Assembly (NCBI RefSeq): GCF_019670125.1
Contig: NZ_AP023033.1
Location: 628,501-692,500 of the forward strand
Length of the DNA: 64,000 nucleotides
Reading direction: 5' to 3'
Source: Agarivorans aestuarii
Lineage (GTDB): Bacteria; Pseudomonadota; Gammaproteobacteria; Enterobacterales; Celerinatantimonadaceae
Positions 4,308 through 19,241 of this stretch are shown here, piece after piece. A program made the position numbers and the translations under genes. The first letter of the stretch is position 1. Each line of letters opens with the position of its first letter. The notes under the pieces were generated by a model. The model was not told the DNA's origin. It was given only the letters and a program-made list of their open reading frames with translations, and made no database searches.

Positions 4308-6503
4308 TTAATTGTCTATCTGAATGTTATCGATAGTAATCTCCACATTAACGGCAGCATCGCCAGAGCCTGCATAAAAGGCAAGGCCTAGCTCTTGAAC
4401 GTTGCTAAGTGCTCCGTCAACAGGAAGTGTCCAGCTAACTTCTGTCCACGTATCTGCTGTTAGATCTGTCCAAGGTCCTTCATTCCAGGTAAAACCTTCA
4501 CCAGTCTTAGCAAATACTTTGCCGCCAGTAATGCCACTTGCTACCGCTTCGCTAGATAACTTAACCATGAAGCTAGCTGCACTTAAGGTACCACTGCCGC
4601 CAACAGCTTGAACAAAGTTAGGCTTCTTCTCTGCCCCTGCTTCATTAACGGTCATTAGTACTGCTTTAGAACTATCTACGCCGCCGTCAGTTGTTAGTGA
4701 AAGGGCTACCGTTCCACTGCTATCCGACGTGCCAGAAAGCTCTGTAGGTACGCTGTCATTCGCTTCAAAGTCATAGGTAAAACTTGGTTCTACTGGCGGC
4801 TCTGGCAACTCCGCTTGAGCGAGTAAGCTTACATCATCAAAGTAGATTGCTACCCCATCAGCGGCCGCACTGTTTTCACCGGCATAAATTTGTACACCTA
4901 ACTCACGAATGTCGGTTAACACTGTCGCTGGTGTCCATGAGAACAAGGTCCATTCGCCTACATTGGCGTTAAACCAATCACCTTCTGCCCAAGTCCATGC
5001 GTCACCGGTTTTAACAAAGATCTTACCACCGCTATAACCTGCGTCTGCTGCGGCTTGAGGAATTTTAACCCAAACGTTCACTGTTGCCACTTCCGGCATG
5101 GTTTGAGGATCAACAGGAAGTAAGAGGTTGGTTTGCTTCTCTCCTTCGGCTTCCGTTGCACGCAAACTTAGTGCGTTACTATCGCTTCTTCCTTCAGCTG
5201 CGGTTATCTCTAGCTGGCCACTACCAGAACTATCTGAAGAGGAACTAAACCCAAATGGCACCTCACCGTCTTCGAAATCATAGCTCGAGCCTGCACTTGG
5301 GTCTGGAGCATCGGCTCCGCTAAGGGCTCTAACACAGTTCAAAACTGAAGCTTGATATTGGTTTGTCCATTGCCAAGAGATCCCGCCTGCGTATTCATTT
5401 TCACTTAGTCTTACACATAGTTGCTCTTCGCCGATGGGGTCACCAAAGTAGTCAAATTCAGCTGGCTTATATGCATCTTTATCTGCGAAGAACTCGCCAA
5501 TAACTACGGGTTTATCTAACTCCCAATAACTGGCTTTGTGGTAGAACGGAGACCAAGTACCTTCTTTTCCTTGGTCGTCGTAATAGTGAGGCGCATAAAA
5601 ATCTAGCGCGGCATTATCACCACCCAAAGCAATCATGTTGGCATCAGAGTAATGGTTAGTACCTCCAAAACCATCAGCATTAAGTAAGCCAAGAGATTTA
5701 GGTCCAGTCGTTACAAGTACCTGTTCACCCAGTTCATCAGCTTTGTTATGGATGGCATTACTTAAAATTGCAGTAGTTGTGTGAATGTCGTTGTAGTCGG
5801 GGACTAGAGCGCTGTCTAAGCTTTCACGGTCAATAAACCAAGATTCAGTCATGTTTTCTGGTTCATTAAATAAATCTATTGCCACTAAAGCTGGGTGGCC
5901 TGCAACTCGGTCAAGTAATGGGTTTAAGAAGTTGTCGATGTAACCTTGAAGCACATTTGAGTCTGTTAGTAAGGAGTGGTTAGCGCTTAATACTTGATTG
6001 GTCATGTTCGCCTGAGTTGCCGCTAACATGTCAAATGACCACAAACATGGCATTACATAAATGCCTTTTGCTTGCGCAAGATCTAAAGCTCGCTCTATGT
6101 CGTCGATAACTTGCTGCTGATCTGCTGCAGGTGCAATAGCGCTGCGGTCAGCGTTCCAAACTGGGCTTTGGGTTCCATTTACGTGTATCCACCATCGAAT
6201 GGTGTTACCGCCTGCTTCTTTCACTTGGTCAAGCATATGGTTTAGTTGGGTTTCATCTAAACCTTGGCCAAAGTCTTCAGCAAAGCTAAGCCATGCTACA
6301 TTCACACCGTTAAGGTAAATATCGTTACCTTGATAAGAGATAGTATTTACACTGGTTCCGTTACCACCAGGGGATTCGTAACCTGGTTCTTCACCTCCTC
6401 CACCATTTGAAGGGTCATTAGCATAGCTTGCATCACACCCAGTAAATTGGGTAGCAACTAATGCGAGTGTTAACGCTGAAGCGATTTTGTTTATCCTGAA
6501 CAT
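4308..6503 (-). CDS. GH5 endo-beta-1,4-mannanase-like lipoprotein with two CBMs
   Basis: 731 residues. A lipoprotein signal (FTGC, Cys23) is followed by a Gly/Glu/Pro-rich linker and a GH5 barrel (about 52-395). The general acid/base is Glu214 in LFNEP, the nucleophile Glu337 in VIGEF, and HYY near 306 fits the GH5 substrate-side His. Two related beta-sandwich modules follow (about 407-570 and 585-731); both begin YDFE and end with a conserved ELGVQIYAG / ELGLAFYAG strand, like the mannan-binding CBM27/CBM11 group. It should cut beta-mannan or glucomannan at the cell surface. The Asp after the lipid Cys would mean inner-membrane retention under E. coli Lol rules, which may not hold here. Four operator palindromes lie upstream. 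Endo-glucanase activity cannot be excluded without a search. Confidence 0.82.
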   Translation of the reverse strand: MFRINKIASALTLALVATQFTGCDASYANDPSNGGGGEEPGYESPGGNGTSVNTISYQGNDIYLNGVNVAWLSFAEDFGQGLDETQLNHMLDQVKEAGGNTIRWWIHVNGTQSPVWNADRSAIAPAADQQQVIDDIERALDLAQAKGIYVMPCLWSFDMLAATQANMTNQVLSANHSLLTDSNVLQGYIDNFLNPLLDRVAGHPALVAIDLFNEPENMTESWFIDRESLDSALVPDYNDIHTTTAILSNAIHNKADELGEQVLVTTGPKSLGLLNADGFGGTNHYSDANMIALGGDNAALDFYAPHYYDDQGKEGTWSPFYHKASYWELDKPVVIGEFFADKDAYKPAEFDYFGDPIGEEQLCVRLSENEYAGGISWQWTNQYQASVLNCVRALSGADAPDPSAGSSYDFEDGEVPFGFSSSSDSSGSGQLEITAAEGRSDSNALSLRATEAEGEKQTNLLLPVDPQTMPEVATVNVWVKIPQAAADAGYSGGKIFVKTGDAWTWAEGDWFNANVGEWTLFSWTPATVLTDIRELGVQIYAGENSAAADGVAIYFDDVSLLAQAELPEPPVEPSFTYDFEANDSVPTELSGTSDSSGTVALSLTTDGGVDSSKAVLMTVNEAGAEKKPNFVQAVGGSGTLSAASFMVKLSSEAVASGITGGKVFAKTGEGFTWNEGPWTDLTADTWTEVSWTLPVDGALSNVQELGLAFYAGSGDAAVNVEITIDNIQIDN

Positions 6504-6695: not shown

Positions 6696-6711
6696 ATCGA
6701 ATCGTTACGAT
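6696..6711. promoter_or_regulatory. mannan-regulon operator 3
   Basis: ATCGAATCGTTACGAT, 14 of 16 matches to the shared consensus, centred at 6703/6704 between the GH5 gene and nudK. Confidence 0.62.
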
Positions 6712-6764
6712 TGTGTGTGTTTGATCAGCTTTTTCTAACAAAATAGTTTGATTGCATACAGTTT

Positions 6765-6780
6765 TGTGATTTCACTCAAA
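6765..6780. promoter_or_regulatory. CRP-like site
   Basis: TGTGATTTCACTCAAA matches TGTGA-N6-TCACA at 9 of 10 informative positions. It sits 14 bp before operator 4 and would allow catabolite control of the divergent GH5 and nudK promoters. Prediction only. Confidence 0.45.
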
Positions 6781-6793
6781 CTATTATACATTA

Positions 6794-6809
6794 ATCGTAA
6801 CGTTACGGT
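6794..6809. promoter_or_regulatory. mannan-regulon operator 4
   Basis: ATCGTAACGTTACGGT, 15 of 16 matches to the consensus, centred at 6801/6802. It is the nearest operator to nudK (about 150 bp upstream) and the best copy in this intergenic region. Confidence 0.72.
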
Positions 6810-6914
6810 TGGTTGGGTGCTATGGTATTTGTGAAATGTGTTTTAAGCGCTTTCAAAGTTAATACATTTCATTAGCTATTTGTAGCATCCTTTCTTTTTT
6901 TTCGGATTCTTTCC

Positions 6915-6942
6915 AAGCCGCTGTCTTTAGCGGTTTTTTTTT
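6915..6942 (+). terminator. orphan Rho-independent terminator directly before nudK
   Basis: CCGCT pairs with AGCGG around a 6-nt loop, extended by a G-T and two A-T pairs, and is followed by nine T. No gene precedes it on this strand, and the nudK ribosome site begins 5 nt after the T-run. It could act as an attenuator of nudK or end a short RNA started near operator 4. Confidence 0.7.
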
Positions 6943-6957
6943 GCCTAAAGGTTAGTG

Positions 6958-7542
6958 ATGAGTGATACCAAAGTAGAAATTTTAAAAAGGCTGGTACTAT
7001 CAAAGTGTTGGTATACCTACTCTAAGTATTCGTATCGTTATAAAGCAAAGGCTAGCGCTTGGCGAACTCAGCATCGTGAGGTACTTAATAAAGGAGATGG
7101 CGCAGCGGTTTTGTTATTTAACTACTCGAGAAAAACAGTGGTACTCGTTAAACAATTTCGTTTACCTACCTATTTAAACGCTCACTCTACTGGTCTAATG
7201 ATTGAAACTTGTGCTGGTGTATTAGATGGAATGTCTCCTGAAGAATGTATTAAAAAAGAAATACTCGAAGAAACCGACTTTATTATTGATGATCCAGAAC
7301 CTGTAATGACAGTTTATATGTCTCCTGGCGCTGTGACGGAAAAAAACTACTTGTTTGTGGCTGATTATTCAGGTGCTGAGCGGCCTAACTTGGGTGGAGG
7401 GCTCGCCAGCGAAGAGGAATTTATTGAGGTGTTAGAGCTTCCTTTTGAGCAAGCTTATTCGATGTTTGAGAATGGCGAAATCGTTGATGGCAAAACCATT
7501 ATGTTGTTGCAGTATGCAAAGCTAAATATATTTTTCGATTAA
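6958..7542 (+). CDS. nudK: Nudix hydrolase, GDP-mannose pyrophosphatase NudK-like
   Basis: 194 residues, close to E. coli NudK (191), which hydrolyses GDP-mannose to mannose 1-phosphate and GMP. Family-specific stretches are visible: GDGAAVLLFNYSRKTVVLVKQFRLPTY, ETCAGVLDG, YMSPGAVTEK, GGGLASEEEFIEVLELPFEQA and GEIVDGKTIMLLQY. The Nudix box spans about residues 87-109 with core KEILEE; the usual late Gly is replaced by Asp (EETD), so activity may be altered. I prefer ATG 6958, with AAAGG 6 nt upstream, over GTG 6955. It is followed after 17 bp by the isomerase gene and probably forms an operon with it. Its place in a mannan locus suggests a mannose or GDP-mannose housekeeping task (inference). 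Confidence 0.82.
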   Translation: MSDTKVEILKRLVLSKCWYTYSKYSYRYKAKASAWRTQHREVLNKGDGAAVLLFNYSRKTVVLVKQFRLPTYLNAHSTGLMIETCAGVLDGMSPEECIKKEILEETDFIIDDPEPVMTVYMSPGAVTEKNYLFVADYSGAERPNLGGGLASEEEFIEVLELPFEQAYSMFENGEIVDGKTIMLLQYAKLNIFFD

Positions 7543-7559
7543 GTGGGGAGATTGAATTA

Positions 7560-8447
7560 ATGGAAAATAAAATTGAATTAGGCTTATCACAGTGGGCGTT
7601 CCATCGGGCTATCTTAGGGGATAGTAGAGACAACTACGATAAATACTTAGCTACTCTGCAAAATGACCCAGAAAAAGTACTTCGCGGAAGTATGGCCAAC
7701 CGAGACATTGTCGAGCAAGCACTCCAACTAGACGTGAAGGTGGTTGACCTGGTTAATTTATTGTTTTTTTCGAGAGTATCAGATGTTCAGTGGCTACGTA
7801 GCTGGAAACAGGATGCTGAACAGCAAGGGGTGCGATTTGCTTGTTTGATGTGTGACGAGCTGGGTCATTTGGCTGCGAGTAGTGTGAAAGAAAGGCAAAA
7901 ATCAATAGAGCTGCATAAACAATGGCTAACGGCCGCTGCAGAGTTAGGCTGTTCTCAGTTGAGAGTAAATGCTTATGGTGACGGTAGTTACTTACAACAA
8001 CTTCGCCATTGTAGTGAAAGCTTAAAGGTATTATGTGATTCGGCAGCATCGATGGGTATTAGTATTGTGGTGGAGAATCATGGTCATCCATCGAGTAATG
8101 GGGCTTGGTTGGCGATGCTAATTGAAAGTGTTGAGCGGGACAACACGGGAGTTTATATCGATTTTGATAACTTTTTTATGGGAGGTTGGCATCATTCGCC
8201 AAAGCGTTTGTACGACCGTTATCAGGGTATGGAGGATCTAGCTAATATTACGGTAGGCGGCAGCGCTAAATCTTACGCTTTTGATCAGAGTGGTAATGAA
8301 ACAACAGTCGATTTTGCTAGATGTGTGAGTATTTTGACGGAGGCAGGATTTAGTGGTGTGTTATCTGCTGAATATGAGGGTGATCTTCATTCCGAGTATG
8401 ATGGCTCAGCTAAAACTCTGGCTCTGCTTAACAAGGTGCTGAATTAG
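7560..8447 (+). CDS. sugar phosphate isomerase/epimerase, xylose isomerase-like TIM barrel
   Basis: 295 residues with the AP_endonuc_2/xylose-isomerase-like barrel. Likely metal-ligand regions are VVENHGH (about 176-182), YIDFDNF (about 200-206) and the final Glu of LSAEYEG (about 272-278); the fold usually binds a divalent metal through Glu, Asp, His and Glu. The family includes epimerases, isomerases and dehydratases of sugars and inositols, so the exact substrate is open; a mannose-derived sugar is suggested only by the neighbourhood. A strong GGGGAG site precedes the ATG, and the 17-bp gap to nudK indicates cotranscription. No signal peptide, so it is cytoplasmic. Confidence 0.72.
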   Translation: MENKIELGLSQWAFHRAILGDSRDNYDKYLATLQNDPEKVLRGSMANRDIVEQALQLDVKVVDLVNLLFFSRVSDVQWLRSWKQDAEQQGVRFACLMCDELGHLAASSVKERQKSIELHKQWLTAAAELGCSQLRVNAYGDGSYLQQLRHCSESLKVLCDSAASMGISIVVENHGHPSSNGAWLAMLIESVERDNTGVYIDFDNFFMGGWHHSPKRLYDRYQGMEDLANITVGGSAKSYAFDQSGNETTVDFARCVSILTEAGFSGVLSAEYEGDLHSEYDGSAKTLALLNKVLN

Positions 8448-8663
8448 CAAATAACTCGTTCAAGTATTTAACAACCAGAACTATATACTGGGCTTAACTC
8501 GCTTTTGTTTTTTTGGGTGAGGCTCGGTATTACATACCTGCAATATTTACTATCATTTTGACTAAATTTTCCCTAGAAAACTGATTCACTTACCACCAAT
8601 TACTCTCTTTGTTACTACCGATTCTGTTGCTGTTGCAACTTAGCTACGAAGTGGTAATCTTTA

Positions 8664-8679
8664 TTCGTAACGTTATCAT
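8664..8679. promoter_or_regulatory. mannan-regulon operator 5
   Basis: TTCGTAACGTTATCAT, centred at 8671/8672, 60 bp upstream of the oxidoreductase start. The remaining 8448-8732 gap shows no other clear element. Confidence 0.66.
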
Positions 8680-8732
8680 TATTGTTTTGTGATGATAATT
8701 TGATGTTTGCCATTTAAGTAGTAAGGTTGAAT

Positions 8733-9722
8733 ATGCACTCACTTCCTAATCAGTCCAAAGCATGGACATTTACCACCGATATATCAGAGCCACAAGACAT
8801 GGACTTGCGTTGGCTTGCCCTTAATAAACCGCAGGGAACCGACGTTGTTGTTGAAAACAAGGCTATCTCCTTAAATCCCGTAGATTGGAAAATAATCCAC
8901 CCCGGTATGGTGGGGAGTGATGGGTATAAAGTTTCTGGTGTTGATGGGGCGGGGGTGGTTGTAGCAGTGGGCCCCGAGTCTGATATTAATGTTGGAGCGC
9001 GAGTTGCTTATCATCAGTCTTTGTCTCGCCAAGGCTCCTATGGGGAACATGCTGTGGTCGACGGTCGTTTAGTTTTTGAAATTCCTAGTGATGTGGATTT
9101 TCATGTGGCGACAGCTCTTACCTGCACAGGCTTAACCGCGTGGCAGGCTCTTGAGAAATTACCCACTTCTTGTGGGTCATATTTATTGGTTAATGGAGCC
9201 GGTGGCTTGGTAGGTAGACTGGCTGCAGAAATAGCTGTAAATAAAGGATTTAATGTAGTTGCTGTTGCGGATAGCCAGCATCATGAAGCATTGAAACATG
9301 CCGGTGTTACGCAATGTTTTGACTATAAGCAATCTGGTTGGCGTCGCGATTTGGGCGCGTTTTTGTCGGCGCAGCCTGCGTTTGCCGCTATTGATACTGT
9401 AAACCGAGCAAGCGCTGAAAGCCTGTTTAATTTTGTAGATGTAAATGGTCATATCGTTACTATCCAAGATCGTTTTGAGAAAAATCCATTTCCGAGCTTT
9501 GATAAGGCTATTTCGATTCATGAAGTAGCCTTAAATGTATTTAACAAACACTTCTCTCCACGAGAAATGCGTAGTTTGAGGCGTGGTTTTAGTACCTTAG
9601 TTAGGGACCACCAACTAGCTGTAAACTCTCGACTATCAACCATCTCTTTTGATGAAATTCCTGAGGCTTTAGAGAAGCTTAAAGCAGGCTTAGCATCTAC
9701 AAAATTTGTCGCTATTTTGTAA
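8733..9722 (+). CDS. MDR superfamily zinc-independent alcohol dehydrogenase/quinone reductase
   Basis: 329 residues, a medium-chain dehydrogenase/reductase. The GroES-like N-terminal part contains NPVDWKIIHPG and GVDGAGVVVAVG. The Rossmann domain has LLVNGAGGLVGRLAAEIAVNKG, a variant of the NADP-binding motif. The zinc-ligand Cys/His pattern of classical alcohol dehydrogenases is missing, so a quinone or enone reductase role is more likely. The ATG at 8733 has AAGG 6 nt upstream, better than TTG 8727. An operator of the mannan set lies before it and a strong terminator after it, so it is a single-gene unit in the regulon. Its substrate and its link to mannan use are not known. Confidence 0.8.
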   Translation: MHSLPNQSKAWTFTTDISEPQDMDLRWLALNKPQGTDVVVENKAISLNPVDWKIIHPGMVGSDGYKVSGVDGAGVVVAVGPESDINVGARVAYHQSLSRQGSYGEHAVVDGRLVFEIPSDVDFHVATALTCTGLTAWQALEKLPTSCGSYLLVNGAGGLVGRLAAEIAVNKGFNVVAVADSQHHEALKHAGVTQCFDYKQSGWRRDLGAFLSAQPAFAAIDTVNRASAESLFNFVDVNGHIVTIQDRFEKNPFPSFDKAISIHEVALNVFNKHFSPREMRSLRRGFSTLVRDHQLAVNSRLSTISFDEIPEALEKLKAGLASTKFVAIL

Positions 9723-9831
9723 GGACGTCTAGTTTATTGGGCTCCATATTTGGCGGTTTATTTTGTTGAAAGAGCCATTTGTAAAATAAGTAAATACTGT
9801 ACTTAGTTGAATCCATATCAAATAAATATAA

Positions 9832-9865
9832 AAAGCTTGAGCTTGCTCAAGCTTTATTTTTTTTA
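9832..9865 (+). terminator. Rho-independent terminator after the oxidoreductase gene
   Basis: AAAGCTTGAGC and GCTCAAGCTTT form an 11-bp perfect stem with a 2-nt spacer, followed by ATTTTTTTT. Confidence 0.85.
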
Positions 9866-9882
9866 GTTTGCTTTAAGTCACA

Positions 9883-9898
9883 ATCGAAACGTTACGAA
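9883..9898. promoter_or_regulatory. mannan-regulon operator 6
   Basis: ATCGAAACGTTACGAA, centred at 9890/9891, about 70 bp upstream of the GH26 gene starting at 9959. 14 of 16 matches to the consensus. Confidence 0.68.
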
Positions 9899-9958
9899 TT
9901 TGTTTATATTTGCCGTGTAAAAAAGTTGGCATGCGCAGCCTTTGTATTCACGTAACTA

Positions 9959-11584
9959 ATGGATTTGACGAAAATGAATCAAGTTAAAAAGAAGTTGTTA
10001 GTAGCCTCGCTAGCTGCAATAAGTGTAGCTAGTTCATTCGGACTGGCAGCAGATACTTATACCTTGAGTAATGCTTCTTCTACACAAACAACGGCTGACA
10101 TCTACAATTGGATTGCCCACTTACCTAACCGAAATACTAACTCTTTGTTAAGTGGGGCTTTTGGAGGTTATGCCAACGTATCTGACTCTAATGGATTTTC
10201 AAGTTCTGAGTCAGATAACATTAATGCTTTAGCCAGCCAACGACCTGGTATTTACGCTTGTGATTATGCCAGAGGCTGGGATGTGACTGCCGCAGGCAGT
10301 GAAAGTGACTTGATAAACTATAGTTGTAATGCCCAACTGATTTCTCACTGGCAATCGGGTGGTTTAGTGCAAATTAGCAACCATCTACCAAACCCTATAT
10401 TTGAAGGGAATATTGCCTACTACAACGATTCAGGTAAAGCGGTTGGAGGACTCAATTCAATCGTCTCAAATGATGACCTTGCCAAATTATTAGTCGATCA
10501 GTCAGCTGAACGGATCCGTTGGTTGGCTATTTTAGACAAAGTAGCAGAAGGCCTACAAGAGTTAGAAGATGCTGGTGTTCCAGTCATCTATCGCCCACTA
10601 CACGAAATGAATGGCGAGTGGTTTTGGTGGGGAGCCACCTCTTACAACTCAAGTGATCAAACTAGGCAGCAGCTTTATGTGGACCTATACAAAGACATGT
10701 TCGACTACTTTACCAACACCAAAACTCTAAACAATCTTATTTGGGTGTATTCGCCCGATGCTAAACGCAATGCTAAAACTGCTTTTTATCCAGGCAGTGC
10801 TTACGTTGATATTGTTGGTTTAGATGCCTATTTAGATGACTTTAGTTTGATGAACGGCTACTGTGAAATGCTAAGTTTAAACAAACCCTTTGCTTTGGCT
10901 GAAGTGGGTCCTGACCAAAACAAGGGCCAATTTAACTATCACGAAATGATCAAGGTGATAAAAAGCCACTTTCCTCAAACAAGTTACTTTATTCCATGGA
11001 ATGATGTTTGGAGCCCTACTAACAACTTGAAAACCAGTGAAGCCTTTAATCACGATGCTGTGGTTAATTTAGGTGAGATATGGGAAGGCGAACACCTCTC
11101 GAGTATTGTTGAAACTGCCCCTTTTCAAACAGAAGTTCTTTATGATTTTGAAAGTGGAACCGAGGGGTGGGGAAGTGAGTCTCAAAGTGTATCTGGTTAT
11201 TGGGCTGTTAATGAGTGGGCGTGTTCTGGAGGGCAATCACTTAAAGCCAATATTGAGTTAAAGAATGATGATACATTTGATCTAAAGGTGGCTTCGGCCT
11301 TAGATCTTTCGGATAAAAACTCTCTTTCAGTACTCGTGCGTTTGGCCTCTTGGGGTAACGTTGGTTCTGGCCTCAAAGCTAAATTGTACCTCAAAACTGG
11401 TCCAGAATATCAATGGTTTGACGGTGGAGAGCTGACCATTACCAATGGGCAAACAAACACTGCAATACTTGATTTGAATACGGTTGTTAATCGAAACGAT
11501 ATCAGGGAGCTGGGTATTTATTTCTCGACCGGTTCAGCAAGTGGTTCAACGGCGCTATATATCGATAAGGTACTTGCCTATTAG
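9959..11584 (+). CDS. secreted GH26 beta-mannanase with C-terminal CBM
   Basis: 541 residues. A Sec signal peptide (KKKLLVASLAA... to about residue 30) has no lipid Cys, so the enzyme is released. The GH26 barrel (about 45-385) carries the family acid/base Glu216 in YRPLHEMNGEWFWWG and nucleophile Glu315 in FALAEVGP, plus the conserved IWVYSPD. A beta-sandwich module follows (about 393-541: LYDFESGTEGW to LYIDKVLAY), like the second module type of the GH5 protein. It should cut beta-1,4-mannan. The ATG at 9974 (MNQVKKK) would give a cleaner signal peptide; neither start has a good ribosome site. One operator lies upstream and a terminator follows. GH26 also includes other activities, but the motifs fit mannanase. 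Confidence 0.88.
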   Translation: MDLTKMNQVKKKLLVASLAAISVASSFGLAADTYTLSNASSTQTTADIYNWIAHLPNRNTNSLLSGAFGGYANVSDSNGFSSSESDNINALASQRPGIYACDYARGWDVTAAGSESDLINYSCNAQLISHWQSGGLVQISNHLPNPIFEGNIAYYNDSGKAVGGLNSIVSNDDLAKLLVDQSAERIRWLAILDKVAEGLQELEDAGVPVIYRPLHEMNGEWFWWGATSYNSSDQTRQQLYVDLYKDMFDYFTNTKTLNNLIWVYSPDAKRNAKTAFYPGSAYVDIVGLDAYLDDFSLMNGYCEMLSLNKPFALAEVGPDQNKGQFNYHEMIKVIKSHFPQTSYFIPWNDVWSPTNNLKTSEAFNHDAVVNLGEIWEGEHLSSIVETAPFQTEVLYDFESGTEGWGSESQSVSGYWAVNEWACSGGQSLKANIELKNDDTFDLKVASALDLSDKNSLSVLVRLASWGNVGSGLKAKLYLKTGPEYQWFDGGELTITNGQTNTAILDLNTVVNRNDIRELGIYFSTGSASGSTALYIDKVLAY

Positions 11585-11602
11585 CACCATTTTTAGAGTT
11601 AT

Positions 11603-11645
11603 AGCGGCAACTCCAATGAAGTTGTCGCTTTTCATCTTTTTTTTG
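11603..11645 (+). terminator. Rho-independent terminator after GH26 gene
   Basis: AGCGGCAACT pairs with AGTTGTCGCT (one G-U) around a 7-nt loop, followed by TTTTCATC and eight T. Confidence 0.8.
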
Positions 11646-11692
11646 AAGGAGCATGCATAATTTACATACTTTTGTGATCTTAAGGTTAATTT

Positions 11693-11708
11693 ATCGTAAC
11701 GTTGTCAT
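11693..11708. promoter_or_regulatory. mannan-regulon operator 7, before the chemoreceptor gene
   Basis: ATCGTAACGTTGTCAT, centred at 11700/11701, 64 bp before the chemoreceptor start. 13 of 16 matches to the consensus. The terminator after the GH26 gene separates the two units, so the site most likely serves the receptor. Confidence 0.68.
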
Positions 11709-11763
11709 TGGTCTATTTGAGAAGATTAATAGAAGCATGTTGTAGATAACTAAGGATGGATTC

Positions 11764-13851
11764 ATGAATGTTCTTCAAACTATGCGTATAAGCAGGCGAA
11801 TTTTCATATTGGTTTTGATGCCACTGATTATCATCTTGTTTTTTGCTAGCGAGCAAATTAATAGAGCGCTAAGCCAGCAAAAGGCGATGCATGAGCTAAG
11901 TTTGGTTATTCAATACATTCAGCAGCTTTCGCCCCTTTTAGCCGCGCTTGATAAAGAGCAAAACTCGGTCGCTGACTTTTTAAGAGTAGATGAAAAACAA
12001 AGCTCTCAGCAATTGGCTCTTCGTTCTGCAATGAACAAAGAGCGGGCCGATACAAAATCACATGAACAACAGTTACTCCATTTTTTGTCTGAAAATGAAG
12101 CAACCCTCGCTAACTCGGGCTCTTGGACAGATGAGGATTTAGCATTTATTCGCAAGAAGCTAAAACAGCTAGATCTCATCAGGCTTGTAGCGGATGAAAA
12201 ACAAGTAAGTTCAGATAAGTATAAAAGCCAGTTTGATGATCAAACTATATGGACTGGTGTGGATATACAGCGCACTAGAATGGCTTTATTACACACTATT
12301 AGTAAGGTGGTTGAAGTGGCAATGCGAGACCATGATCTAGGTATGATCGCTAATGCTTACTACTATCTGTTGCTTGCTTCTAGCGCAAACAATGAACTAC
12401 ATGAAAACATTAACTCAGCCTTATCGAGTCAAATGGGAGGTTATACTTTTGGCCAAATGATGCTGTATCGTGAAAAGGAAGGTAGCTTTAGGGAAATGTA
12501 TGTTCGTTATGCAAGTACCGAATCAATGGCGGTATATCAAAAAGCTTTCTTAGATTCTGGATTATTAGGATCATTAACCAATGCTTATTGGGATGTATTT
12601 GATTCATATAAGTTTATCGACAAATCTGCTCTAACTTTACGTCCTGAGCTACAACGCCGTTGGCCGAGTCTCGCTCAACAAACTGCCCAAGCCTATCAAC
12701 GCGTTGAAGACGGATTGTTAGCAAGTTTATCTGCTACAAAAGATCTTAAAGTTAGTGAAGCACAACACCTTCTTCGCATGTCAATATTTTGGGTTGCAGC
12801 GGCTATCGTTATTACTTTAGTGTTTTCGTATCTTGTAGCTAACAGTGTTACTAAACCGATTGACTCATTGGTGCGAAGCTTTACCCAGTTAGCTAAAACT
12901 AGAGACATGAGTTTTAGATTGGCAGCCAAAGGGAGAAATGAAATTACCGCTCTGGGAGAGGCCTTTAATCAATTAATTGAAAGCTTCAATGAAGCCTTAG
13001 TTGGAGTAAGGCAACAATCTAAAACCATGGGTGAAACTACCGAACAAGTGGCTGGCGCGATGCAGTTGTCTCTAAATTTATCCGCTCGCCAGCAAGAGTC
13101 TACAGACAGTATCTCAGTAGCAACCAACGAGATGACTACCACCATTCAAGAAGTGTCTAATATGGCTCAGCAAACTTCCACAGCGGTGCAAACGGCCCAT
13201 ACAGTGTCTTTAGACAGTGCTCGCTGTGTGGATTCTAGTCGTGAGCTGATGGTTAAGCTAACTGAGGAGCTAGGTGATACAAGCCAACAAGTAGAAAACT
13301 TAAATTCAGAGGCGGCACAAATTGGCAACATACTTAATGTGATTAGAGACATCTCTGAGCAAACCAACTTACTTGCGCTGAACGCTGCTATTGAGGCAGC
13401 AAGGGCTGGTGAAAAGGGGCGGGGCTTCGCGGTAGTTGCTGATGAGGTGAGAAATTTAGCGACTCGAACTCAAGACTCAACGAAACAGATTCAACAGCAA
13501 ATTGAATCATTGTTCGTAGGAGCGTCAGCAGCCACGGAGAAAATGAAAGCATTAAAAGAAGAGGGCAGTAACGCTGCTGATTTGGTACTCAAAAGCTCAG
13601 CTTCTTTTGAAGAACTAAAACAAGAGTTGGATAAAGTTCTGGATATGGCGACTTATATTGCAACTGCCACCGAGGAACAAACGCTGGTTTCTAATGACAT
13701 AAACAAACGTACCGTTGAAATGAGAGATGATTCTAGCGACCTAGCTTCTCAAGCCTCTAAAACTATGGAAATGACCGAGTTACTTAAGAAAGATGGTAGT
13801 ACGTTACAAGGCTATGTTGACCGCTTTAAAGTATCAGAAATGCCTTCTTAG
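11764..13851 (+). CDS. methyl-accepting chemotaxis protein, NIT-like helical sensor
   Basis: 695 residues. The first membrane segment is at about 14-28 and the second at about 340-362, which enclose a roughly 310-residue, mostly helical periplasmic sensor that resembles NIT-type (nitrate/nitrite sensing family) domains, though the match is not certain. A HAMP domain follows ([20 protein letters not shown]...). The cytoplasmic signalling hairpin has the diagnostic [34 protein letters not shown] tip at about 532-570, where CheA and CheW dock. There is no C-terminal NWETF pentapeptide. The upstream palindrome places it in the mannan regulon, so it may sense mannan products or an associated signal. 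The sensor fold itself gives no ligand. Confidence 0.88.
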
Positions 13852-13871
13852 AATTAAACAAAGTGGTGTGA

Positions 13872-13934
13872 AGTATAGATTTACTCATTTAGGATAAATC
13901 TATACTCGCTCACTGTTTTGTTGCTAAAACAGTG
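13872..13934. terminator. paired hairpins between convergent chemoreceptor and HupE-like genes
   Basis: Two stems: AGTATAGATTTA/TAAATCTATACT (12 bp, 11-nt loop, 13872-13906) and CACTGTTTT/AAAACAGTG (9 bp, 6-nt loop, 13911-13934). The second includes the HupE-like stop codon. Neither has a long T-run outside the stem, so termination is probable but not certain. Confidence 0.45.
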
Positions 13935-15066
13935 GATTGAAATCTATTCCCGATGCTCTTTCTGCCAACCAGATGAGGGCGACAATACCTACTAATGAAC
14001 TACCCCCTCTAAGGATAAACGTTTGGTAGAACTTGTATTCCCGACAGTAATAAAGTAACGGGAGTAACACAGCAACAATAATTAGTTGACCAACTTCCAC
14101 ACCAACATTAAAGGCGATTAAAGCAACATAGGTTGCTGTTTTTGGTAAAGATAATTCTAACAAGACATTGGCGAAGCCAAAGCCATGGATCAAACCAAAA
14201 ATAAAGGTGATTAGTGTTAATTGTTTATTTACTCTTGGGAATAAGCAATTTAATGCCACAACAATCACTGACAGCGCAATAATTGATTCGGTGATGCGAG
14301 CAGGAGGAAGGCTAACCCAGCCTAAAACAGCACTGATTAAAGTGATGCTATGGGCAACCGTAAATGCGGTAACAATTTTGAGTGTCTCTAAGGTGACCTC
14401 TTTAAATGATTCTTTGGCATGCCACTGTTTGTTAGAGATAAATAGTACAGCCGGTAAGATCAAACACACCAGAAACAATATATGATCAAGACCTATCCAG
14501 ATATGCCAAATACCTTCAATCAAAAACTCTTTAATGGTTTGGGTAATGCTGATTTTCTCTAGAGATATGCTTTGCTCGCGTTGGTCGCTAAAGAAGCGAA
14601 CTTGGGTCATGGCATCGCCTTGGGTAAGGTGCATAGAGCCACTGTGCTCTTCATCATTTTCAAAAAGCAGGTTGTAGCTTGCAGAGATACTTTGCTCTAT
14701 TGTTGGGCACTGATGTTCGAGCAGAAATCGTAGATAGTTACCGCTGCCATGAATCACAAATTTGTGGTTACTGATAGTGTATTCACAACTTTTCCCATCG
14801 AAACGAATGCTTAAATTGTTACTGATGTACTGGCTAATAGCATTTGCAGGGTAGTTGCGCTCTTCCTCCACGCTAAGCTTTCCATCTGAATTTTCGTCTA
14901 AGTTGAAGCGCTTGTTTAGCTCACCAGTTGTGAGATCAAATTGTAATTCCGCATGCCCTTTTTCATCTAAAGTTACGACTAAGTGACCGCCTTCCCCTAA
15001 GTTGTGAGCATATGAAGTTATGCTTGTTGTAATAAGCAGAAAAAAAACTAAATAGATACTTTTCAT
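13924..15066 (-). CDS. HupE/UreJ-like membrane protein with EF-hand-bearing exported domain
   Basis: 380 residues. A signal peptide ends near SYA-HN (residue 20), and an exported beta-rich domain extends to about 165. It contains a canonical EF-hand loop, Asp57-x-Asn59-x-Asp61-Gly with Glu68 at position 12, so calcium binding is likely. The rest has about six or seven membrane helices, beginning with HIWIGLDHILFLVCL and including FGLIHGFGFANVL, signatures of the HupE/UreJ_2 family. Some relatives are proposed metal (Ni/Co) transporters, but that role is unproven for this type. It lies 73 bp after the MBL-lipoprotein gene on the same strand, with a hairpin between them. Coexpression is possible but partial. 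Confidence 0.72.
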   Translation of the reverse strand: MKSIYLVFFLLITTSITSYAHNLGEGGHLVVTLDEKGHAELQFDLTTGELNKRFNLDENSDGKLSVEEERNYPANAISQYISNNLSIRFDGKSCEYTISNHKFVIHGSGNYLRFLLEHQCPTIEQSISASYNLLFENDEEHSGSMHLTQGDAMTQVRFFSDQREQSISLEKISITQTIKEFLIEGIWHIWIGLDHILFLVCLILPAVLFISNKQWHAKESFKEVTLETLKIVTAFTVAHSITLISAVLGWVSLPPARITESIIALSVIVVALNCLFPRVNKQLTLITFIFGLIHGFGFANVLLELSLPKTATYVALIAFNVGVEVGQLIIVAVLLPLLYYCREYKFYQTFILRGGSSLVGIVALIWLAERASGIDFNPLF

Positions 15067-15088
15067 GTTGTACGTCTCATAGCAACAA

Positions 15089-15113
15089 AGCGAAACACCT
15101 TGGGTGTTTCGCT
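15089..15113 (-). terminator. hairpin between the MBL-lipoprotein and HupE-like genes
   Basis: AGCGAAACACC and GGTGTTTCGCT form an 11-bp perfect stem with a 3-nt loop. On the minus strand only a weak TTGTTG tract follows. It may lower expression of the downstream HupE-like gene or stabilise the upstream mRNA. Confidence 0.5.
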
Positions 15114-15139
15114 AATAGTAAGTTGTAAGTGATTGCTTG

Positions 15140-17791
15140 TTATTCGGCCACAGAGCGCCATTTGTCTAGGTTAGGTAGATAGACCTTTTGGTGTAGGGCT
15201 TGTTGTTGGCTATCGGAATAGTCTGGGTAGCGTAAATCACCAACCTCATCGATGGCCAAATCCTTCATCGTTTCGTAAGTCCATTCAACTTCCCCATCAT
15301 CATTGCTTGTTGCACGAATGATTAGATGGCCTATATCAAAACTCATCAGCATCTCTTTGTAGCGACTGCCATGACGCCTTAGAAAGTTCACCGCTTCCAT
15401 GGCGTCTTGAGTGAAGGCGCCTCGCGCGTAGACCACTTCACTGGCCGGAACGAAAATTAGTGATGGGTCGACATTTTTTACGTACTCTGGATTGATAGAG
15501 CCGTGCCAATGGTGGTTCCCATACAATACCTGCCCGGTAATGGCACCTAGCCCATATTCACGCATAATGCGGTCTTGGTTATGGGCATAAATGTCACCTT
15601 GGAACTGCACTGTAAAGTCTTGGTAATTCATGCTAAATGCTAAGGAGTTGGCATTTAAATCACAGGAGTTAACAGCGATGGCATCTTCTGAACAAGAGTC
15701 ACCAAACGTATTGAGAATTTTTACGTTGGTACCTTCAAATTCAAACTCTCGTCCACTGGAAAAAAAGTTTCTATCACCGCCGTCTTCTTCGTGCATCGAG
15801 CGTTGCACCATTACATTTGGAAAGGCGTTTACAAAAGCTTCGTGTCCGTCGGAGATAAACCCATCATAAACTTGGCGTCGATAAGTTCCGGCAATATGGT
15901 CTCCGTGAGGGTGAGTTAACCATAGGTAGTCTGGCTCAATGTTGTTGGCTTTAAGGAATGGAATTACTCTATCAAGGTTCACCCACCATTGGCCTAAATC
16001 TACAATCAGCGTTTTACCGCTGGGCATTAAAAATGCCGCAGCATTACCGTGGCTAGAGTCAAAAAAGATCACAACAAAGTCGTTGTTAACAGGTTCTTGC
16101 TTACTCACTATTGCCAGTTGTGTTTTTTGAATGTCTCCATTAGAAAGCTGCCAAGATATTTCATAATCTCCAGGAGCTAAGTTCGCTAACTGTTGGCTAC
16201 TTAAGTGCGCAAAAAAACCGCCATAAATGACGCTAGTGAATCGGCCCTCAATGACATCCTTGTACTCTTCTACTTCATATTGCAGTTCAGCATCTTGTAC
16301 CTCAGAGTCTTCAGCTAACCCACTAATGGTCACTTGGGTGAGTTGATTACCATAGGGGTCAACTTTGATTGATAATTGCTTTGGCTTGTCTAGGTAGAAG
16401 CTTTGTTGCTTAGGCCCAATTTTAGCGGCCATGGCAACTGGCTCTCGTGATACGTCAAAGTAGTCAAAGTCTTGGTATCCCCAACTTTTGATGATTTCAA
16501 TTTTGTTGCTGCCTTCTTTAAACTCCATGGGGAAATTGGCTGTTTCCCAATAGGTTCGACTGGAGCGAAAACCTGCGCCAGGTAAAGCAAACTCATCATT
16601 CACTTTTATATCTTGTGCTTTATCGCTACTGCCGGTTCGATAGCGGAAACTTACGTTATACAAACCCGCTTGGGCTACGTTTACATAGAACAGCAAGTTA
16701 CCGCTATTTTCCATGCTGACATACTTACCACCACTGGCTGCATCATCAAGGGTATCCCAGTCTGAGTCCCCATAACTGCGAACTTTCATTAGTTCGCCAA
16801 GGGTTACATCTTCGGCTTCATAGCGATCACCTGCTGGGCCCGTTAGATTTTCATCCTCAATGACTTTGATTTCAAAGGTTGTCGGCTCCATGTAGTCAAA
16901 GTCGACCTGTGCTTGATACGAGCCGGGTTCAAGTTGGGAAAGGCCATCTGCACTGATTGTTAGTTGGTTGCACTCATCATTTAGCGTATAGCTCGCGGGT
17001 TCTCCACCTATAGACACACCAACTAACTTGTTGGTATTTAGTTTTAACTCTGCAGAAATTGGGTTCATTTCTTTGGTATAGTGCACGCCTTGTGTGAGTG
17101 CATATTGAGAAGCAAATCTTATAGGGCTGCTGCTCACTTCCAATTGGTCAAAAATGGTATATCCCCACGACAGGCGAATCTCCATAGAGTAGTTCCCAGC
17201 CTCCAATTCAGGACGCATTATGAACTCGTGCCATTGGGGATCAGCATGCTCTAAGAACTCATAGCCCCATTGGGAGAATGCAGCATTTTCGTGCTGATCG
17301 TCTTGCAGGTTGGTATGGTCTAATTGCCCGTCTTTATACAAGAATATGTGTTGTTTTTTGTATCCTGGCTGAGTGTTTGCGTGGATTTTAAATTCATACA
17401 CACCGTCTTCGGGAATGCTTATGTTATGCAGGTATAGCTTTCCAGAATTACCATTCATGTATACATATTGACCATTGCTCGCAGGGTCTAAGCTTAACTC
17501 TCCGTCACCGTCATGTTGTAAAGTTGGAGCATTTCCAATAACGGCTCCTTTTTCTAAACTCTCATCAAAGGCCGCTTCAAACTCATAATTGTCATAGCTC
17601 TCTACCTGCCAGTCTGTATCGACAACCGATTCGGCCATTAAAGGTAGGCAGCTAGCAGGGATAATGTTATCTACGGGGGTGTCATGAGTATTCGCATTAT
17701 TGTTATCAGATGAGAAACATCCTGCTAGAGCGCCACTCATAAAAGTGGCTATTAGCAATGTTGCAATTTTAGGGGGCTTACACTTGTTCAT
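15140..17791 (-). CDS. lipoprotein with two CBM6/35-like modules and a ComEC-type metallo-beta-lactamase domain
   Basis: 883 residues. Lipobox ALAGC (Cys25). A first beta-sandwich module spans about 60-220 (GQYVYMNGNSGKLYLHNISIPEDGVYEF). A second, CBM6/CBM35-like module spans about 322-447; it starts RYEAEDVTLGE and holds GGKYVSMENSG and AGLYNVSFRYR, with a WGYQDFDYFDVS end. Ig-like spacers follow each. The C-terminal part (about 571-825) is a metallo-beta-lactamase fold: VIFFDSSHGNAAAFL, then the metal motif HPHGDH (627-632), QGDI (Asp733) and a His-rich GNHHWHG (758-764), in the style of ComEC/Rec2 hydrolases. It should be a surface-anchored metal-dependent hydrolase docked on polysaccharide. 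The bond it cleaves is unknown. Operator 8 lies 65 bp upstream. I know no characterised protein with this architecture. Confidence 0.75.
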   Translation of the reverse strand: MNKCKPPKIATLLIATFMSGALAGCFSSDNNNANTHDTPVDNIIPASCLPLMAESVVDTDWQVESYDNYEFEAAFDESLEKGAVIGNAPTLQHDGDGELSLDPASNGQYVYMNGNSGKLYLHNISIPEDGVYEFKIHANTQPGYKKQHIFLYKDGQLDHTNLQDDQHENAAFSQWGYEFLEHADPQWHEFIMRPELEAGNYSMEIRLSWGYTIFDQLEVSSSPIRFASQYALTQGVHYTKEMNPISAELKLNTNKLVGVSIGGEPASYTLNDECNQLTISADGLSQLEPGSYQAQVDFDYMEPTTFEIKVIEDENLTGPAGDRYEAEDVTLGELMKVRSYGDSDWDTLDDAASGGKYVSMENSGNLLFYVNVAQAGLYNVSFRYRTGSSDKAQDIKVNDEFALPGAGFRSSRTYWETANFPMEFKEGSNKIEIIKSWGYQDFDYFDVSREPVAMAAKIGPKQQSFYLDKPKQLSIKVDPYGNQLTQVTISGLAEDSEVQDAELQYEVEEYKDVIEGRFTSVIYGGFFAHLSSQQLANLAPGDYEISWQLSNGDIQKTQLAIVSKQEPVNNDFVVIFFDSSHGNAAAFLMPSGKTLIVDLGQWWVNLDRVIPFLKANNIEPDYLWLTHPHGDHIAGTYRRQVYDGFISDGHEAFVNAFPNVMVQRSMHEEDGGDRNFFSSGREFEFEGTNVKILNTFGDSCSEDAIAVNSCDLNANSLAFSMNYQDFTVQFQGDIYAHNQDRIMREYGLGAITGQVLYGNHHWHGSINPEYVKNVDPSLIFVPASEVVYARGAFTQDAMEAVNFLRRHGSRYKEMLMSFDIGHLIIRATSNDDGEVEWTYETMKDLAIDEVGDLRYPDYSDSQQQALHQKVYLPNLDKWRSVAE

Positions 17792-17855
17792 TTATCCTTC
17801 AACTCCAAAAGTGTATTAGTGATTTAAATCGATTTTTGTTCATAGTGAATACTAA

Positions 17856-17871
17856 ATCGTAACGTTTTCAT
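17856..17871. promoter_or_regulatory. mannan-regulon operator 8
   Basis: ATCGTAACGTTTTCAT, centred at 17863/17864, 65 bp before the MBL-lipoprotein start on the minus strand. 13 of 16 matches. It lies in the 271-bp gap shared with the divergent GH26 lipoprotein gene. Confidence 0.66.
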
Positions 17872-18008
17872 TTTTATTTAAGGAATATGATGCCGATGAC
17901 TTTTCGAGTACTTGATGATTTGTCATCTTGATAACTATCGATTGTTATTTGGGAGTTTATAAAGAGAGGGATATCTAAGTTTCAGTAAGTTTCTATAGAA
18001 TAACCTTT

Positions 18009-18024
18009 GTCGTAACGATACGAT
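18009..18024. promoter_or_regulatory. mannan-regulon operator 9
   Basis: GTCGTAACGATACGAT, centred at 18016/18017, about 39 bp before the GH26 lipoprotein start. 13 of 16 matches, with a mismatch on the right of the centre. The position would overlap a promoter, which fits repression. Confidence 0.62.
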
Positions 18025-18062
18025 TTCTGGCGTTTTTGTTTTGAATTTTACAAGAGGTATGT

Positions 18063-19241
18063 ATGAAGTTATCTCCGTTTATTGCGGCACTTACAATAGC
18101 TTTAGTCTCGACGGGCTGCGTTAGCTCTGGCAATGATAGAACCGAAGAGAGCAATAAAGCTGCTCAGTTAAGTAATCCAGATTCCTCGCTAACAACCCAA
18201 GAGCTATACAGAAAGTTAGTAAGCCTAGAAGATAAAACTGAGAACAAACTACTTAGTGGGTTGTTTGGCGGATATAGTGACATTGAAAGAACCGATTACG
18301 GCCGCTATAACGGAGATGGTGAGTTTGTTCAGGATGAACAAGGTCAAAAAGTAGATGATAATGAAATGGTGCGAATTGAAAAAGTAACTGGTAAACGCCC
18401 CGTCATTTATGCCTGTGATTTTGGTCTGGGATGGAACGCCTATGAGAAAGCAAGTGATGCTATTTATACCGGCTGTGCTGAAGATTTAATACTTAAAGCC
18501 AAGCAAGGCCATGTAGTACAAATTAGTAACCACTTAATTAGCCCAATCAATACTTTTTCAGATAACTTTAAAACCGCAGTTAGTAACCAAGAATATGCCC
18601 GTATTTTTGAAACCGGAAGTGTGGAGCGCGCACGTTGGTTAGACATAATGGATGAAGTTGCCATCGGATTAGAGAAGTTTAAGCAAGCCGACGTGCCAGT
18701 TATCTTTAGGCCCTTGCATGAAATGAACGGCGATTGGTTTTGGTGGGGAGCTGATAACGCAGAGGGCGGCACCGCCGAGCGGCAGGCACTGTTTGTTAAG
18801 TTATATCAAGACATGCACAAGTACTTAAGTGAAGATAAGGGCTTAAACAATTTGATCTGGGTTTATTCACCTGACCGGGGGCGACCTTCTTTAGTAGAGT
18901 ATTACCCTGGTGATGCTTACGTAGATATTGTTGGCTTAGATGCATACTTTAATGGGCAAGCAGATATTGATGATCTAAAAGCTGACTATAGGGTGATGAC
19001 CACCACGTTTAACAAACCTTATGCATTAACCGAAACCGGGCCCCGTTCAAATTGGAATCCAAATGGACGATGGCTACCTAAAACGCCATTTGATTACCAT
19101 AACCTAATCAAAGAAATTGAAAAGGATATGCCAAAAACAGCCTTTTTTATTACCTGGAACACGGGCTTTGGCCCTTCTTGGAACCTGAACGCAAAAGAGG
19201 CCTTTAATCACCCTTGGGTGGCTACCTTAGGCGAGTTTTAA
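18063..19241 (+). CDS. GH26 beta-mannanase lipoprotein
   Basis: 392 residues. Lipobox VSTGC (Cys19) with Val at +2 predicts outer-membrane attachment. A single GH26 domain fills about 45-392: acid/base Glu220 in FRPLHEMNGDWFWWG, nucleophile Glu324 in ALTETGP, and IWVYSPDRG and YVDIVGLDAY typical of the family. There is no binding module. It is clearly related to the secreted GH26 at 9959 over the whole barrel. A membrane-bound GH26 without CBM usually works on short mannooligosaccharides at the periplasmic side or cell surface, which suggests exo- or mannobiose-releasing activity (inference). An AGAGGTATGT site precedes the ATG. A terminator follows. Confidence 0.87.
   Translation: MKLSPFIAALTIALVSTGCVSSGNDRTEESNKAAQLSNPDSSLTTQELYRKLVSLEDKTENKLLSGLFGGYSDIERTDYGRYNGDGEFVQDEQGQKVDDNEMVRIEKVTGKRPVIYACDFGLGWNAYEKASDAIYTGCAEDLILKAKQGHVVQISNHLISPINTFSDNFKTAVSNQEYARIFETGSVERARWLDIMDEVAIGLEKFKQADVPVIFRPLHEMNGDWFWWGADNAEGGTAERQALFVKLYQDMHKYLSEDKGLNNLIWVYSPDRGRPSLVEYYPGDAYVDIVGLDAYFNGQADIDDLKADYRVMTTTFNKPYALTETGPRSNWNPNGRWLPKTPFDYHNLIKEIEKDMPKTAFFITWNTGFGPSWNLNAKEAFNHPWVATLGEF

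Follow-up and report, generated by a model that had tools for sequence, protein, structure and literature searches.

Pce/CbpE of Streptococcus pneumoniae is a metallo-beta-lactamase (MBL) that acts as a teichoic acid phosphorylcholine esterase and is joined to polymer-binding modules. The degradation of mannan, for its part, is usually framed in terms of glycoside hydrolases (GH), phosphorylases, acetyl esterases and lytic polysaccharide monooxygenases. A window of 64,000 nucleotides of Agarivorans aestuarii (the whole stretch of DNA that was analysed, G000:C1:628501-692500) encodes a new variant in which CBM35 is joined to an MBL domain, and the mannan setting of this architecture recurs in a second, distant lineage. 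The protein is probably an undescribed tool that removes something attached to mannan. The MBL domains of ComEC, which its own MBL domain also resembles closely, are Mn-dependent nucleases (PMC8579336, PMC12455585).

Architecture and predicted fold

The original prediction, made from the sequence alone, had described a lipoprotein with Cys25 and two CBM-like beta-sandwiches in front of a ComEC-like MBL domain, and these parts were recovered. SGALAG precedes Cys25 (lipobox recognised by eye) and a helix occupies residues 8-25 of the predicted model. The CBM35 assignment of the second sandwich was obtained with Pfam (PF16990, 48.1 bits for a cut-off of 28; E 1.8e-12 in two stretches, the best being 360-447). 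Judged by its sequence, the first sandwich is a divergent copy of CBM35 (29% identity to the second, pairwise E 5e-10, or 7e-4 at a database size of 1e6); in the predicted model its beta strands run from residue 91 on. The best PDB sequence matches of the protein were the ComEC MBL domain and CBM35 modules, the CBM35 part being closest to the CBM35 of GH26 mannanases (3ZM8, E 3e-11), and from this similarity and the gene's setting we infer that the module binds mannan.

The C-terminal domain belongs to the MBL superfamily, with an alpha-beta/beta-alpha fold in the predicted model and, in the sequence, HxHxDH, the motif IV Asp and the motif V His. Lactamase_B of Pfam scored 22.4 bits on the whole protein (cut-off 22.7) and 24.3 bits when residues 560-883 were scanned alone, and ComEC_Rec2 of NCBIfam covered residues 560-784 (E 1.4e-8, far below the equivalog cut-off). 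When residues 571-840 of the model are divided into 27 ten-residue blocks, 22 of them have a mean predicted local distance difference test score (pLDDT) of 70-96. The structural search that had been proposed as a check placed ComEC and Pce closest to this model, which supports the predicted fold and puts the domain in the ComEC/Pce subgroup; Pce/CbpE (1WRA, 2BIB) was the second-best match, with 18-19% identity.

Homologues, motif signature and mannan regulon

A search for further CBM35-MBL pairs was performed on 395 sampled genomes of the phylum Bacteroidota (that of G639), of which 109 matched, only two candidates being scored in most genomes. CBM35 and MBL fell within one match in 2 of the 109, and the two proteins align to residues 349-843 (34% and 32% identity, E 3e-55 and 2e-51). 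In each of them Pfam finds CBM35 and MBL, the N-terminus holds a hydrophobic stretch and a linker domain separates the two modules; both lie in mannan loci. In genome G653 the gene sits between a protein sorted by the type IX secretion system and GH26, CBM35-GH26; around it lie GH26, GH2, GH5 and GH3-CBM6, and at a greater distance GH130. In G658, open reading frames (ORFs) of matching lengths follow the same order. The linker region can be aligned across the three proteins, and the linkers taken alone gave no BLAST match. Among three CBM35 modules compared, that of the window protein is nearest to that of the homologue L142 (57 bits, versus 36 bits with the CBM35 of the neighbouring GH26), which suggests that the CBM35 and MBL domains were inherited together.

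The complete metal site put forward by the original prediction is present (HPHGDH, D733 and His 760, 761 and 763), and H627, H629, D631, H632, D733 and H760 are conserved in both cross-lineage homologues. The three family members share DxxHG (H581), THxHxDH, DxYxxNQ from D733, WTYET, NHH[WF]HGS (759-765) and ExxYARxA (785-792), all invariant. They were compared with ComEC-like relatives gathered by an alignment-led scan of genome contigs, which gave at least 84 relatives (80 kept), all matching inside residues 509-876; among the matches listed, none reaches CBM35. The same scan of viral contigs gave one relative. Alignment A3 combines 62 of the 81 relative loci (L015-L095) with the window protein (63 rows); the 19 loci left out are 8 of ComEC length, 6 short ones labelled GloB-like by the analyst, L094, the truncated L038 and, for no particular reason, L051, L071 and L075. 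A comparison of profiles A6 and A3 was not used because A3 includes the window protein and is not independent.

In the 62 relatives D598, H627, D631, H632 and D733 are invariant, H760 is His in 61, and H629 is His in 57 and Asp in 5. Column 581, in contrast to the family, is Gln in 60 and His in 2, with D583 in 57; column 759 is Gly in 45 and Asn in 1, column 762 is Ser in 59, Y793, G794 and H795 are found in 56, 50 and 56, and positions 786-789 are gaps in 56-59. The three members thus lack DVGQGD and YGHPH and carry NHHxHGS in place of GHHGS. Pce has HTHSDH and NHHHD at the aligned positions. In quick trees of 100 rows, and of 96 rows after four long-branch rows were dropped, the three form one group (Shimodaira-Hasegawa-like approximate likelihood ratio test values of 96 and 92), whose stem measures 1.7-1.85 changes per column. 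In both trees this long branch may attract other long ones, and neither tree fixes the position of the group relative to ComEC. ComEC-like MBLs, secreted or as lipoproteins, occur widely; of the 63 rows of A3, 4 match the lamin tail domain and 3 match SLH. In the haloarchaeal plasmid loci L011, L012 and L014 a DUF3006 gene follows each secreted one, and a deltaproteobacterial MBL on a very long branch (L090:5986-6837) starts with NVGHGQ, which resembles the DxxHG of the group.

An operator held in common with mannanases had also been claimed, and the count bears it out: the palindrome AATCGTAACGTTACGATT has 6 sites in the window at 3 mismatches or fewer versus 0.02 expected, and none of 100 shuffles reached 6. 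Copies adjoin both the MBL gene and mannan genes (Table 1), which would place the MBL gene in a LacI-type mannan regulon. With a tighter form of the pattern, fitted to the six window sites, 14 of 17 genome-wide matches fell in 594,584-646,523, about 1.1% of the genome; 8 of the 14 are in sequence beyond the window, whose six sites defined the pattern, and at least one of these eight, that at 620,486, is inside a gene. This interval (G000:C1:594584-646523) is taken as a 52-kb beta-mannan regulon, of which window positions 6697-18023 form the right end. It contains two GH5-CBM27 genes, GH26 twice, another GH5, two GH130 phosphorylases, an epimerase, PMM, PMI, LamB, an ABC importer and a 2015-aa CBM35-X2 protein; the LacI-type regulator is at L097:10338-11396. 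The docking on a mannan-like glycan that the original prediction had proposed can therefore be narrowed, through the GH26, GH5-CBM27 and GH130 of this regulon, to beta-1,4-mannan.

Table 1. Features of the MBL gene, its product and its surroundings (window positions; residues are those of the 883-aa protein)
Feature	Position	Strand	Basis or remark
CBM35-MBL lipoprotein gene	15140..17791	-	883 aa, ATG start
Signal peptide with lipobox and Cys25, residues 1-25	17717..17791	-	Lipobox by eye
First CBM35-like module, degenerate, residues ~60-225	17117..17614	-	Homology to second module
CBM_X2-like domain, residues 243-308	16868..17065	-	Pfam, E 2e-4, below cut-off
CBM35, residues ~322-450	16442..16828	-	Pfam; PDB match
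Linker domain, residues ~455-565	16097..16429	-	Ig-like only in position and predicted strands
MBL domain, ComEC/Pce subgroup, residues ~570-843	15263..16084	-	
HPHGDH, residues 627-632, motif II of metal site	15896..15913	-	
D733, motif IV Asp	15593..15595	-	Invariant in 62 relatives
NHHWHGS, residues 759-765, group-specific form of motif V	15497..15517	-	His 760, 761, 763
Palindromic operator copy	17855..17872		3 mismatches, 63 bp upstream of MBL gene
Palindromic operator copy	18008..18025		3 mismatches, 37 bp upstream of divergent GH26 gene
Divergent neighbour GH26 (beta-mannanase family)	18063..19241	+	Pfam
GH26 with mannanase galactose-binding-like domain	9959..11584	+	Operator copy upstream
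GH5 with mannanase galactose-binding-like domains	4308..6503	-	Operator copies upstream
Terminator-like hairpin, 11-pair stem, after MBL gene	15089..15113	-	Consensus match only

The divergent GH26 has no close homologue in the 11 other family genomes (31-33% identity in 2 of the 11). Just downstream of the MBL gene, a HupE/UreJ_2 membrane protein (window 13924-15066, minus strand) has only weak homologues, in 2 of the 11, and its N-terminal DENSDGKLSVEE resembles a calcium loop by eye. It was rejected as an operon partner, the terminator-like hairpin lying in between (8 such sites in the region, 5.2 in shuffles).

Other searches delimit the distribution of the gene. No close homologue was found by single-protein scan of genome and viral contigs. 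The order search gave matches in 7 of 295 genomes (MBL stretches only in 6), the phylum search in 3 of 398 (with MBL alone in 2) and, at E 1e-15, the class search in 2 of 369 (its own genome and one match of ComEC length) and the phylum of G638 in 6 of 44 (MBL only). Four of the five genomes of earlier loci matched, though no single match spanned both domains, and the plasmid search returned 4 records for the window protein and 23 for that of L142, none covering 80% of the query.

Proposed function and alternatives

To the following reading we give somewhat better than even chances: a mannan-docked surface lipoprotein, coexpressed with mannanases, whose dinuclear-metal MBL of the ComEC/Pce subgroup cuts a non-glycosidic bond on the mannan or beside it, with a phosphoester or phosphodiester as the likeliest target. 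Release of the LacI-type repressor would lead to expression together with the mannanases, and the CBM35 modules would hold the lipoprotein on beta-1,4-mannan at the outer surface. The MBL domain would bind two metals, probably through H627, H629, D631, H632, D733 and H760, the role of H760 being presumed; a His of the HHGS motif apparently corresponds to a putative DNA-binding residue of ComEC (PMC12455585). The metal site would then activate water for attack on the bond, by analogy with Pce on teichoic acid, and this cleavage may allow the GH26 and GH5 mannanases to reach the chain. Exposure at the surface, binding of the repressor, occupancy of the site by metal, the identity of the bond and this order of steps are inferred. 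A phosphoester or phosphodiester was preferred for two reasons: in this corner of structure space the two characterised proteins use phosphodiester-type substrates, and motif V of the new group is Pce-like.

Several results weigh against this reading. The two homologues count as one independent case because they are 94% identical and come from the same order (2 of its 4 genomes have the gene); scanned singly, they gave weak and mixed MBL matches in NCBIfam, ComEC not being first. In the family search 1 of 12 genomes, its own, has the gene and the other 11 are without it. Both operator copies beside the MBL gene are among the more degenerate ones, and the genome total of the tighter pattern is not above chance, since 17 matches compare with 19 for the reversed control. 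Five blocks of the MBL model (631-670, 791-800), the first of which holds D631 and H632, have a pLDDT of 45-61, and the N-terminal (CBM) half is poor. ComEC ranks above Pce in sequence profiles. Among the papers listed by a literature search on phosphorylated mannan in diatoms, none is relevant by title.

The best surviving alternative, which we consider unlikely, is a mannan-anchored extracellular nuclease that has kept the ComEC activity; by cutting DNA in the matrix of algae or biofilms it would open the way to mannan and supply phosphorus. HHH_3, a motif type for DNA binding, occurs in 10 of the 63 A3 rows, the ComEC nuclease domain is the closest family in both structure and sequence, and nuclease activity is what is described for ComEC. 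The three members, however, lack the motifs of the ComEC relatives (Q581, D583, S762, Y793, G794, H795), no DNA-binding domain is found among the Pfam matches of the window protein, and the operator and the Bacteroidota locus link it to mannan genes. Extracellular DNA, one of the substrates first suggested, thus becomes less likely because the ComEC-type motifs have been lost.

Slightly less probable again is an acyl-esterase in which the MBL would strip O-acetyl or other acyl groups from mannan in place of the usual SGNH esterase. In its favour, mannans are often acetylated (PMC9860051), and the proteins of the region that were scanned in the window genome, three of them without a clear family, include none of an esterase family. 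Against it, no carbohydrate acetyl esterase with an MBL fold is known to us, and in G658 the MBL gene has a GDSL acylhydrolase and a CE2 esterase 13-16 kb away; since that locus has its own esterases, an acetyl ester is less likely.

An MBL-type sulfatase acting on sulfated mannan is very improbable, the structural Z of the sulfatase match being 7-12 below those of ComEC and Pce and level with many other MBLs, and the faintest chance is left to a non-catalytic or mannan-unrelated passenger of recent domain shuffling, for which speak the three members found and the single family genome, and against which stand the conserved metal-site residues, the occurrence of CBM35 together with MBL in the mannan loci of both lineages and the operator copy at the gene.

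A speculative extension of the preferred phosphoester reading, in our view doubtful though less so than any of these alternatives, is that the protein founds an undescribed family of polysaccharide-targeted MBL phosphodiesterases, in which CBM35 would bring a Pce-like site to phosphodiester-bearing or cross-linked beta-mannan. If this were true, there would be a phosphorylated form of beta-mannan in nature, and bacteria of two or more distant lineages would degrade it. The presence of CBM35-MBL in mannan loci of two such lineages points to a chemical trait of environmental mannan for which the enzyme sets now described may not account; the protein would be a ready means to find it.

Comparison with known systems

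The original prediction knew of no enzyme of this build. This stands for the open-access papers listed by the literature searches, none of which was seen to treat an MBL enzyme in mannan degradation or joined to CBM35. A paper on Teredinibacter has MBL and CBM35 in different proteins, and the word 'lactamase' gave no hits in the mannan papers PMC9860051 and PMC10492685. It does not stand for analogous builds, of which Pce/CbpE offers one.

ComEC (MBL domain, 9IC4) has a membrane channel and an OB fold, whereas the window protein, an 883-aa lipoprotein, has neither, and no competence or OB family appears among its Pfam matches. It also differs from ComEC and the secreted or lipoprotein ComEC-like MBLs in lacking DVGQGD, GHHGS and YGHPH and in carrying CBM35, and its group stands apart in the tree on a long stem. 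Haloferax Hvo_1477 was rejected as support for DNA degradation by ComEC-like MBLs: it has a thermonuclease domain, and the MBL domain occurs only in larger haloarchaeal homologues.

In the GH26 mannanase with CBM35 (3ZM8) the catalytic partner is a glycoside hydrolase, in the window protein an MBL. The 2015-aa protein of the regulon (L096:11134-17178), with CBM5/12-like, several CBM35 and X2 modules, has a CBM35 similar to that of the window protein (residues 348-500, E 6e-8) and shares with it X2 domains (Pfam) and an upstream operator copy; unlike it, it has no MBL. No catalytic family exceeded the Pfam cut-off in this protein, which looks GH113-like by eye. In Pce/CbpE, finally, a choline-binding module stands where the window protein has CBM35 (no choline-binding repeat family being among the Pfam matches of the latter), the order of the modules is reversed, and the substrate is teichoic acid instead of mannan.
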